From: a virus
Direction: 5' to 3' (one strand)
Virus record (IMG/VR): IMGVR_UViG_3300050821_006085
Location: 1 to 36,691 of that record
DNA length: 36,691 nucleotides
Shown in pieces: positions 40-36,691 of this stretch. A program made the position numbers and the translations under genes. Each line of letters starts with the position of its first letter. The first letter of the stretch is position 1. Under the pieces are notes generated by a model. The model was not told the origin of the DNA. It ran no database searches and saw nothing but the letters and a program-made list of their open reading frames with translations.

Positions 40-45
40 TATAAT
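40..45 (+). promoter_or_regulatory. -10 box (TATAAT) of the host tRNA-Glu gene, now at attL
   Basis: A consensus TATAAT ends 14 nt before base 60, the first base of the tRNA 5' half. This places the start of transcription near 52 and leaves a short 5' leader. No good -35 is visible upstream. The position fits the native promoter of the tRNA-Glu target, which integration separates from the 3' half of its gene. Confidence 0.65.
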
Positions 46-56
46 CGAAGCTCTCC

Positions 57-98
57 GATGGCGCTATCGTCTAGGGGTTAGGACGGAAGATTCTCAAT
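57..98. repeat. attL core: left copy of the 42-bp attachment repeat
   Basis: Identical to 36597-36638. The repeat begins 3 bp upstream of the tRNA and covers the acceptor 5' strand, D-arm and anticodon stem-loop, ending inside the anticodon loop region. At this end the tRNA stops after the anticodon loop and continues into phage sequence, so only a tRNA 5' half remains. Confidence 0.95.
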
Positions 99-110
99 GT
101 GAGCGCCAAC
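60..110 (+). pseudogene. Stranded 5' half of tRNA-Glu with a phage-derived closing strand
   Basis: Bases 60-98 equal the 5' half of the intact tRNA at 36600. Phage bases 102-107 (AGCGCC) are the exact reverse complement of the acceptor 5' strand 60-65 (GGCGCT). The D-arm (69-71 with 82-84) is kept. A transcript from the promoter at 40-45 could therefore fold as an acceptor stem plus D-arm without a T-arm. Whether such an RNA exists is unknown. Confidence 0.5.
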
Positions 111-111
111 T

Positions 112-120
112 GTTGCAAAC
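112..120 (+). promoter_or_regulatory. Candidate integrase arm-type site, left arm
   Basis: The 9-mer GTTGCAAAC lies 13 bp after the core. It matches, with one difference, the GTTGCAAAT copies at 36550, 36561 and (reverse) 204. In circular attP these flank the core on both sides, as integrase arm sites do. Confidence 0.5.
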
Positions 121-144
121 ACGCCACTTGCGTGTGTTTTCAAC
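112..144 (+). terminator. Hairpin with T-tract just inside attL
   Basis: ACACGC (119-124) pairs with GCGTGT (130-135) around the loop CACTT. The outer arms GTTG (112-115) and CAAC (141-144) can also pair. A short T run (137-140) follows the inner stem. It could end transcripts from the orphaned tRNA promoter or, on the other strand, those of the leftmost - strand genes. Confidence 0.5.
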
Positions 145-203
145 ATCTTAACTTCCCGTGACGTGCTGCTGTTTTCTACTGTTTCTCGCCCTCTTGTTAC
201 AAA

Positions 204-212
204 ATTTGCAAC
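204..212 (-). promoter_or_regulatory. Candidate integrase arm-type site (inverted)
   Basis: ATTTGCAAC here is the perfect reverse complement of the GTTGCAAAT pair beside attR. It lies about 106 bp from the core, a normal distance for an arm site. Confidence 0.45.
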
Positions 213-217
213 GAACT

Positions 218-411: not shown

Positions 412-1227
412 TCACTTTCCCGCCTTCGCGCTCTTCGCTTTCTGCTCTGTGTCAAAAAACACCTTGTCAGGCTGCACACTAAAACGCGTCTCAGGCTGAA
501 CGGCTTGGCTTTCATGAGACACGAAGCCCAGGTTGATGTCACCTCGCAGGAAAGCGCGCACGCGGGCTACTTTGCCGCTTGCATAGTGCCGCAAATGTTC
601 TCGAACGCTGTGGCGGCGGACGTGCCAACCGCGCGCATGAACTCGAAAGTTAATCCCGTCAGTAGTGAAGATTTTCTCGACACCATCAATCACAATGGTT
701 CGCATTTCGGCCAGAGCACGTCTAACTTCCTTTCCGTTCTTAACTTTTGCTGGTCGTCCGGGCTTGACGCTGATCGTAGCTGACGCTGGATTTGATTCGA
801 AATAACCAACGAGCCAAGCATAAAGGAAAGCTCTTTGTACCTTTTGTTCGATTTCAGACTCACTGAGCGCATCTTGTGGACGCGCTTTCCACTGATCTTT
901 GCCTCTAATAACAACGACTTTGAAAGAACCGTTTTGTAGAGGCTCGAATTCTGAGATAAGAACCTCTGTGGCATCAGAGGTAAGGATAATACCCAAATGT
1001 TTTTTGCTGTTGCCGTCTTCAGATAGGTACTCTCCCTCTGACCAGAGGCTACGGCGCGGGAAAGAATTTAAGGGAGTATCAGCTAAAAACTCTTCAAGTT
1101 TGTGGTTTTTCTCTAAATAATTGAGGAATGCTGTGACGCCAGATATTTCGTAAGCAGTCACACTGGTGAACAACGGCGGGAGGTTTCCGCTTCGTTTGAA
1201 CCACAGCCTAACGTCGTCGATGATCAT
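412..1227 (-). CDS. Hypothetical phage protein (271 aa)
   Basis: Unrecognised soluble protein with no signal peptide or membrane segment. Its C-terminal half carries a basic stretch (about residues 195-230) with spaced His and Arg residues (RGWHVRRHSVREHLRHY) followed by FLRGD. This looks like a nucleic-acid-binding or small structural module, but I cannot name the family. It is divergent from the 1334 gene across about 100 bp and is the left-most long gene on the - strand. The start codon is ATG; an SD-like GGAGGG lies too far upstream (about 20 nt) to be certain, so the true start may lie a little inside. Confidence 0.7.
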   Translation of the reverse strand: MIIDDVRLWFKRSGNLPPLFTSVTAYEISGVTAFLNYLEKNHKLEEFLADTPLNSFPRRSLWSEGEYLSEDGNSKKHLGIILTSDATEVLISEFEPLQNGSFKVVVIRGKDQWKARPQDALSESEIEQKVQRAFLYAWLVGYFESNPASATISVKPGRPAKVKNGKEVRRALAEMRTIVIDGVEKIFTTDGINFRVHARGWHVRRHSVREHLRHYASGKVARVRAFLRGDINLGFVSHESQAVQPETRFSVQPDKVFFDTEQKAKSAKAGK

Positions 1228-35466: not shown

Positions 35467-36594
35467 ATGGAAACTGAAGCGAAGAAAAAGCAAAGGACGC
35501 GCGGGAAGGGAAGCATCGGGCGCGTCAAAGGGTCGCCATATTTTTATATCTGGTATCGCAGCAAAGGGAAGACCATCCGCGAGAGCACCCGCTCAGAATC
35601 GAAGATGGTCGCTGCTGCGCTGCTTGCGCGACGCGTGACAGAGGCAGCCGACGGTCTGCCGCCAGCTCAAGAGCAGAAGAAGTTTACCTACGAAGATGCG
35701 CGCGCGACGCTGATTGCACACTATGAACGAGAGAAGTGCTCCTCGCTGTTGACCCGCGCTGACGGCACCAAAGACATCTGCGGCCTCAAGAAGCTCGATG
35801 CTTATTTCGGTGGTCGGCATTTAGCTGACATCACGTCTGACGATGTTGAGGGCTTCATCAAGCAGCGTCAGGACGAAGGAGCAGGGCCTGCCATTATCAA
35901 TAGGAGCAACGCGCTCCTCCGGCGAATGCTCAAGCTCATGTGGCGCAAAAAGAAGCTGCGAGCTGCCATTTGGGTTCCGATGCTGAAAGAGCCTGAGCCG
36001 CGTGAAGGATTTTTAGCGGCGAAAAAGTTTGCAGAACTCGAAAGCGCGATGCAAGAAGACCTGCGCCCTGTTCTGTATTACCTCTACATCACTGGTTGCC
36101 GGTCGGGCGCTGCGGAGCAAATCGAGTGGTCGCAGGTGATCTTCGACGGCGACAAAGTTGAGATTCTTCTACGGGCGGCGCAGATGAAAAATAAAGAGCC
36201 GCTGCTGTTAGCTCTCGACGAGAAGCTTGCGGCACCCTTGCGACAGACGCCCAAAGAGAAGCGTGTCGGGCGGCTGTTCAACACGACAAATCTGACGAAG
36301 GCTTTTCGGAAAGCTTGCGTTGCGGTAGGATTAGGGCAGTGGCGCGACCCGAAGAACCACGATAAGGGGTACGACGGGCTTACGCTGCACGATTTGCGAC
36401 GCAGCGGAGTGCGCAACTTGCGGCGTGCGAAGGTTCAGGAAGACATGGCGATGAAAATCTCAGGGCACAAAACAGCGAACGTGTTCAAAAGGTACAACAT
36501 CATCGACAGTGACGATCTTCACGAAGCCATGCAGAAAACGTCCGCGTATGTTGCAAATTCGTTGCAAATCGGCTCAGACACTTCCCGTAAGTGA
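35467..36594 (+). CDS. int: Tyrosine recombinase (phage integrase), 375 aa
   Basis: N-terminal basic arm-binding region (KGSIGRVKGSPYFYIWYRSKGK, about 15-35). SAM-like core-binding domain at about 75-170. Catalytic domain with R212 (ITGCRSG), K241 or K243 (MKNKE), H308-x-x-R311 (LHDLRR), H334 (SGHKT) and Y343 (VFKRYNI). All six active-site positions are present, so it should be active. The stop (TGA) lies 2 bp before the attR core and 5 bp before the tRNA gene, so readthrough enters the tRNA. Confidence 0.96.
   Translation: METEAKKKQRTRGKGSIGRVKGSPYFYIWYRSKGKTIRESTRSESKMVAAALLARRVTEAADGLPPAQEQKKFTYEDARATLIAHYEREKCSSLLTRADGTKDICGLKKLDAYFGGRHLADITSDDVEGFIKQRQDEGAGPAIINRSNALLRRMLKLMWRKKKLRAAIWVPMLKEPEPREGFLAAKKFAELESAMQEDLRPVLYYLYITGCRSGAAEQIEWSQVIFDGDKVEILLRAAQMKNKEPLLLALDEKLAAPLRQTPKEKRVGRLFNTTNLTKAFRKACVAVGLGQWRDPKNHDKGYDGLTLHDLRRSGVRNLRRAKVQEDMAMKISGHKTANVFKRYNIIDSDDLHEAMQKTSAYVANSLQIGSDTSRK
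36550..36569 (+). repeat. Candidate integrase arm-type site pair, right arm
   Basis: GTTGCAAAT twice with an 11-bp period (36550-36558 and 36561-36569), inside the last codons of the integrase. Copies of the same 9-mer lie on the other side of the core at 112 and (inverted) 204. Confidence 0.6.
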
Positions 36595-36596
36595 TT

Positions 36597-36638
36597 GATG
36601 GCGCTATCGTCTAGGGGTTAGGACGGAAGATTCTCAAT
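36597..36638. repeat. attR core: right copy of the 42-bp attachment repeat
   Basis: Identical to 57-98. Here the tRNA continues with its authentic 3' half, so the functional gene lies at this end. Confidence 0.95.
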
Positions 36639-36674
36639 CTTCAAACCCGGGTTCGATTCCCGGTAGCGCTACCA
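36600..36674 (+). tRNA. tRNA-Glu (anticodon CTC)
   Basis: 75 nt including the encoded CCA. Acceptor GGCGCTA/TAGCGCT with one G-U at the end, D-arm GTC/GAC, anticodon stem GAAGA/TCTTC with loop TTCTCAA (CTC anticodon, reads GAG), T-arm CCGGG TTCGATT CCCGG, discriminator A. Its 5' half came with the phage; the 3' half is host. The natural promoter remained at attL. Confidence 0.95.
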
Positions 36675-36691
36675 AGTCTCTTGTGCTATCA

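Follow-up and report, generated by a model that had tools for sequence, protein, structure and literature searches.

The prophage and its attachment sites

The window, meaning the whole 36,691-nt stretch of record IMGVR_UViG_3300050821_006085 (G000), encodes a tyrosine integrase along with portal, terminase and capsid proteins, and is a prophage integrated in an acidobacterial tRNA-Glu gene, with attL at its left edge. Positions 1–98 are host DNA, comprising the tRNA-Glu promoter and the 5′ half of the tRNA. The only exact repeat common to both window ends is a 42-bp att core, whose identity stops at position 98, one base past the anticodon loop, both here and in the nearest full relative, IMGVR_UViG_3300036790_000309 (G002; its integrase is 87% identical, and it shares the tRNA-Glu, the 42-bp core and the layout). 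The features of the window are as follows.

41–46, plus strand: TATAAT, −10 element of the host tRNA-Glu promoter (a word conserved in intact loci), severed from its tRNA by integration
57–98, plus strand: attL copy of the att core (GAT and tRNA-Glu nucleotides 1–39), an exact 42-bp repeat of 36597–36638
60–98, plus strand: 5′ half of tRNA-Glu(CTC), through the anticodon loop, identical to 36600–36638
99–139, plus strand: variable attP-arm spacer, poorly conserved between the window, G002 and G654, with conserved flanking motifs
102–108, plus strand: AGCGCCA, exact complement of 59–65, read directly (p = 0.014) and absent in the sister G002
111–145, plus strand: inverted repeat (−13.2 kcal/mol), the hairpin of the initial annotation
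140–150, plus strand: TCAACATCTTA, with the IHF-like motif TCAANNNNTTA conserved in attP arms (7/10 attLs)
197–215, plus strand: TTACAAAATTTGCAACGAA, candidate arm-type site for the integrase, also conserved in G002 and G654
35467–36594, plus strand: tyrosine integrase gene, int (PF00589, E = 5.8e-8), reading towards attR and the whole tRNA
36551–36569, plus strand: TTGCAAATTCGTTGCAAAT, int-side candidate arm-type repeats, shared with G002 and G001
36587–36598, minus strand: TCAATCACTTAC, inverted partner of the 140–150 motif, directly before the tRNA, the same in G499
36597–36638, plus strand: attR copy of the att core, an exact repeat of 57–98
36600–36674, plus strand: whole tRNA-Glu(CTC), reconstituted, without its native promoter (ARAGORN; RF00005, 63.6 bits)

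The initial annotation had placed a stranded half tRNA at attL, and this is borne out by the position of 60–98 within the 42-bp repeat and by the whole tRNA at 36600–36674, the sole tRNA that ARAGORN found in the window. Because the repeat consists of GAT and the first 39 nucleotides of the tRNA, with int facing the whole tRNA, it is the 5′ half of the tRNA that the phage carries. The exact crossover point probably lies at the anticodon loop. The element has the arrangement of a 5′-tDNA-fragment island, with a whole tRNA at one end, a 5′ fragment upstream at the other in the same orientation, and a tyrosine integrase gene inside; the att copies are ∼36.5 kb apart, inside the 2–200 kb length range of the Islander class.

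The stranded promoter and the rebuilt tRNA

By inspection, most of the 99 Acidobacteriota loci compared (for example L019, L081 and L087) have the word TTTG(C/T)TATAAT at the equivalent place 5′ of an intact tRNA-Glu, which supports the earlier claim that a host tRNA promoter precedes the half tRNA. The 99 loci, all matching a 30-nt tRNA pattern, included no half copies; each held an intact tRNA. The stranded promoter would still be active in the lysogen, transcribing the half tRNA. It points towards the leftmost gene (412–1227, minus strand), to which read-through would be antisense. At the other end, no sigma70-like site was found before the rebuilt tRNA-Glu in 36300–36691; in the lysogen this tRNA may depend on read-through from int, and we infer that it is expressed from there.

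The acceptor complement in the window and its relatives

The phage bases AGCGCC (102–107) are the exact complement of the acceptor strand GGCGCT (60–65), with the G1–U72 end pair of the tRNA replaced by G–C, just as had been described, and T59–A108 extends the stem to 7 bp. The tRNA-like fold with a kept D-arm that was built on this stem was not confirmed by structure prediction. In the RNAfold minimum free energy (MFE) structure of 60–150, 60–65 pairs with 102–107 and the D-stem is not formed, and once eight leader bases and a longer phage tail are included the acceptor closure itself is lost. The stem is also not part of the inverted repeat of the integrase core, as 60–65 and 102–107 are not symmetric about the anticodon loop.

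We compared the junction with 25-mers drawn at random from the phage itself. For the window, the empirical p was 0.014 for an exact complement of 7 bp or more between the leader and acceptor and the next 25 nt, and 0.021 for one of 6 bp or more with the acceptor only. The ensemble pairing energy of acceptor and leader with the phage bases gave p = 0.16, the MFE of the window junction gave p = 0.39, and over ten elements the thermodynamic pairing test was flat (Fisher p = 0.48). The excess of the complement over chance is weak, because it is a feature chosen by eye from 36 kb.

In G002, the sequence after ...TTCTCAAT reads TTGCCATCCACTCATTG, and AGCGCC is absent; GCCATCC is present instead, which pairs exactly with GGATGGC (four bases of leader and acceptor nucleotides 1–3) in a shifted 7-bp stem. 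Further attLs were collected by taking Acidobacteriota integrase relatives with a tRNA just 3′ of int and then locating the displaced half. This gave nine more distant 5′-fragment attLs, in tRNA-Met (G005, G197), tRNA-Leu (G014, G038), tRNA-Gln (G209), tRNA-Thr (G115), tRNA-Asn (G347), tRNA-Val (G089, with the tRNA ∼1 kb from int) and tRNA-Glu (G499). Only G209 among the nine has a 7-bp complement (GGGAGGT/ACCTCCC), the other eight having 3–5 bp. The 6-bp complementarity, whose absence from related phages was the refuting observation named in the initial annotation, is lacking in G002 and in eight of these nine attLs; the shifted stem of G002 and that of G209 soften this result and keep a weaker version of the claim alive.

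Exact 7-bp leader or acceptor complements are found in 3/11 attLs (the window, G002 and G209; p ∼ 0.014 each), a count that is nominally high and above expectation if the elements were independent and the test had been fixed beforehand. The stem definition was left free, permitting the leader and any place in the 25 nt, the window was chosen for having such a stem, and G002 is a close relative. This family comparison is based on 10–11 elements, the attLs of several relatives being lost at contig ends. As related prophages do not keep it, the 6–7 bp complement is most likely coincidental, falling in a variable spacer.

Other searches for homologous junctions added little. G001 (integrase 92% identical) has no attL on its contig, an exact search of viral contigs for GTCT...AATGTGAGCGCC and a single-sequence integrase search of genome contigs returned nothing, and the integrases in phage records were only ∼25–26% identical, with no attL similarity. 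The left-end gene as bait recovered only G002. Searches with the arm motif matched only G654 among 397 genomes; from viral contigs the sole gain was another record of the G654 prophage. Four tRNA-Glu loci considered as attRs of the integrase clade (L028, L064, L093 and L106) were not supported as such by an adjoining integrase. Two further arrangements were observed: in G005 the element between the tRNA-Met halves is only ∼7 kb (L133 13005 to G005:C9 ∼147332) and is possibly a satellite or small island, while at L251 (G221:C118) integrase sequence borders a tRNA-Gln on either side, as a complete integrase on the 3′ side and a broken relative on the 5′ side.

The hairpin following the half tRNA

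The hairpin that had been reported at 112–144 does exist as the inverted repeat 111–145, but only 8/14 of its pairs are kept in each of the homologous arms of G002 and G654, so the pairing is not conserved, and its likeness to a terminator is marginal. A terminator scan found no intrinsic terminator at 1–500; a marginal stem of 5 bp, CACGC/GCGTG with TGTTTTCA after it, passes a looser scan. At the corresponding position G002 folds another hairpin with comparable energy; G654, where no tRNA promoter precedes the arm, does not. The looser scan also picked out a strong candidate intrinsic terminator, GGGACCGCCTCTTTCGGGGCGGTTTTT, in G038 (L256), ∼71 nt downstream of its half tRNA-Leu. In Rfam only the whole tRNA matches, with positions 1–300 giving one sub-threshold hit (E = 0.31). 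With the stem absent in most relatives and the hairpin pairs not conserved, the closing stem and hairpin are not supported as a selected RNA feature, and the hairpin is best explained as mostly a by-product of the DNA sequence of the arm.

Conserved DNA motifs of the attP arms

The DNA on the 3′ side of the hairpin is a conserved motif, whereas the hairpin pairs are not kept. Positions ∼126–155 are strongly conserved in the homologous arms as CACTTG..TGTGT..TCAACA.CTTAACTT. The motif TCAANNNNTTA, which resembles the IHF consensus core, is present in 7/10 attLs, at +30, +36 or +42 on the phage side, against 0.0024 expected per element, an excess that is still large even though the ten attLs are related to one another and the binomial significance is therefore overstated. 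It is absent from the eleventh attL, G038. In the window it occurs inverted on both sides of the att core (140–150 and 36587–36598), and in G002 one base within the 36587–36598 motif is changed. TTGCAAA/TTTGCAA words occur at both 197–215 and 36551–36569. Integrase and a host bending protein are predicted to bind the arms.

The integrase of G654 is 62% identical, and there the homologous arm is located across the core from its position in the window, next to int and attached to the 3′ half of the tRNA. In the G654 prophage (L245, L254) this position of the arm turns the 5′-fragment into a 3′-fragment layout. An arm found on the other side of the core behaves as a DNA recombination arm, and 99–139 is accordingly marked as spacer; the flanking DNA motifs are conserved while the stem and hairpin are not, which gives the same assignment.

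The 5′-fragment layout in the integrase clade

The 25 integrases scoring best against the clade profile include the window and G002, and several of them were used to build the profile. In 18/25 int is followed immediately by a whole tRNA on its own strand; one (L164) has the 3′-fragment layout and six have no adjacent whole tRNA, including G654, which has the 3′-fragment layout described above. Lower-scoring integrases show 18 loci in the 3′-fragment and four in the 5′-fragment layout. Loci of the clade in the 5′-fragment layout include L108, L150, L151, L153, L154, L156, L157, L199 and L239, and the tRNA targets include Glu, Gln, Thr, Met, Leu, Asn and Val. This Acidobacteriota tyrosine-integrase clade thus works mostly in the 5′-fragment mode, separating a tRNA from its own promoter.

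Interpretation of the junction

We consider it likely that the locus is the attL junction of a 5′-fragment-mode prophage, where the stem is a coincidence in the attP spacer and the hairpin mostly reflects the DNA sequence of the arm. The phage attP carries the 5′ half of tRNA-Glu, and crossover in the anticodon loop would rebuild the tRNA beside int at attR, leaving the host promoter and the old half stranded at attL. The half tRNA would then be followed by the second attP arm, with the variable spacer (99–139), the IHF-like motif (140–150) and the candidate integrase sites (197–215). Transcripts from the stranded promoter would enter the spacer, and their spacer–acceptor pairing would be mostly accidental.

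Counting against coincidence are the 3/11 exact complements, differing in sequence between the window, G002 and G209, and the similar hairpin energy in the window and G002, with none in the promoterless arm of G654. These observations fit a spacer shaped by selection so that the orphan transcript folds, with its acceptor closed and its synthesis attenuated by the next hairpin, as do the strong intrinsic terminator after the half tRNA in G038 and ICEKp1, where stem-loops attenuate read-through from a host tRNA promoter, so that there is precedent even for selected structure (PMC13023037). Such insulation is nonetheless unlikely, given that the stem is missing in most relatives, thermodynamic pairing is no better than in random phage DNA, the hairpin pairs are not conserved and a clear terminator was not found in the window. 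A general form of it, in which the attP spacers of phages that strand a 5′ half shield the orphan transcript by acceptor or leader pairing evolved anew in each lineage, is quite improbable; if true, the shield would consist of shifted stems that arose separately in the window, G002 and G209.

The phage AGCGCC is one base off the AGCGCT of the tRNA, and CCTCCC of G209 matches the 3′ acceptor strand of its tRNA-Gln, as would be expected if the complement were the decayed remains of the 3′ acceptor strand of the tRNA, inherited from an attP that formerly contained more of that tRNA. We think this very unlikely, as the T-arm between the halves is absent and GCCATCC of G002 does not itself come from a tRNA, pairing instead with the leader. 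In phage lambda, the tI/sib hairpin beyond attP ends or destabilises the int mRNA. The hairpin of the window could act likewise in the excised phage, downstream of int across attP: int reads towards attP, and the hairpin on its far side fits a sib/tI position, though with pairing that is not conserved and is only marginally terminator-like this too has very little probability. The plausible promoter and the closing stem on the half tRNA might point to a functional small RNA, or to one that acts as a decoy for tRNA enzymes, but this is extremely improbable, the predicted fold missing the D-stem, the T-arm and CCA being absent, and the sequence having no Rfam match and no conservation in relatives.

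Comparison with known systems

The attL is real, and its layout is already known as a minority mode from Islander, where 3760 of the 3919 islands have a 3′ fragment and the other 159 a 5′ fragment (PMC4383910). As in the Islander 5′-tDNA islands, a tyrosine integrase lies between a whole tRNA and a displaced 5′ fragment in the same orientation, and identity ends at the anticodon loop, as it does for their anticodon-loop subsite (PMC4383910). Nothing basic differs; the arm of the window happens to hold a 7-bp acceptor complement.

For the pTN3-like archaeal integrases, rebuilt tRNAs are expressed from the integrase promoter, a situation that a review of archaeal recombinases describes as seldom met in bacteria (PMC8371274). 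The window resembles these in that the tRNA is rebuilt behind mobile-element DNA and has lost its own promoter, but its host is bacterial, int is whole beside attR, and tRNA expression from int is our proposal. ICEKp1 has a host tRNA-asn promoter that drives int and reads through stem-loops that attenuate it (PMC13023037). In both systems a host tRNA promoter reads into an integrated element and meets stem-loops, whereas the promoter of the window would run antisense into the leftmost gene rather than drive int, and attenuation here is a proposal. In the tRNA-dependent lysogeny of mycobacteriophages, integration also breaks a host tRNA gene, but the host tRNA is not restored, its place being taken by one that the phage supplies (PMC10865867); the window shares a 42-bp core with its target, rebuilds the tRNA and carries no other, and falls outside that class.

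Delivery of a 5′ half would leave a live promoter facing the prophage and a rebuilt tRNA behind the integrase gene. This layout is rare among mapped islands (159/3919; PMC4383910) yet common in the Acidobacteriota integrase clade, which makes the clade a natural system for testing how lysogens maintain expression of these tRNAs and what becomes of the orphan end.
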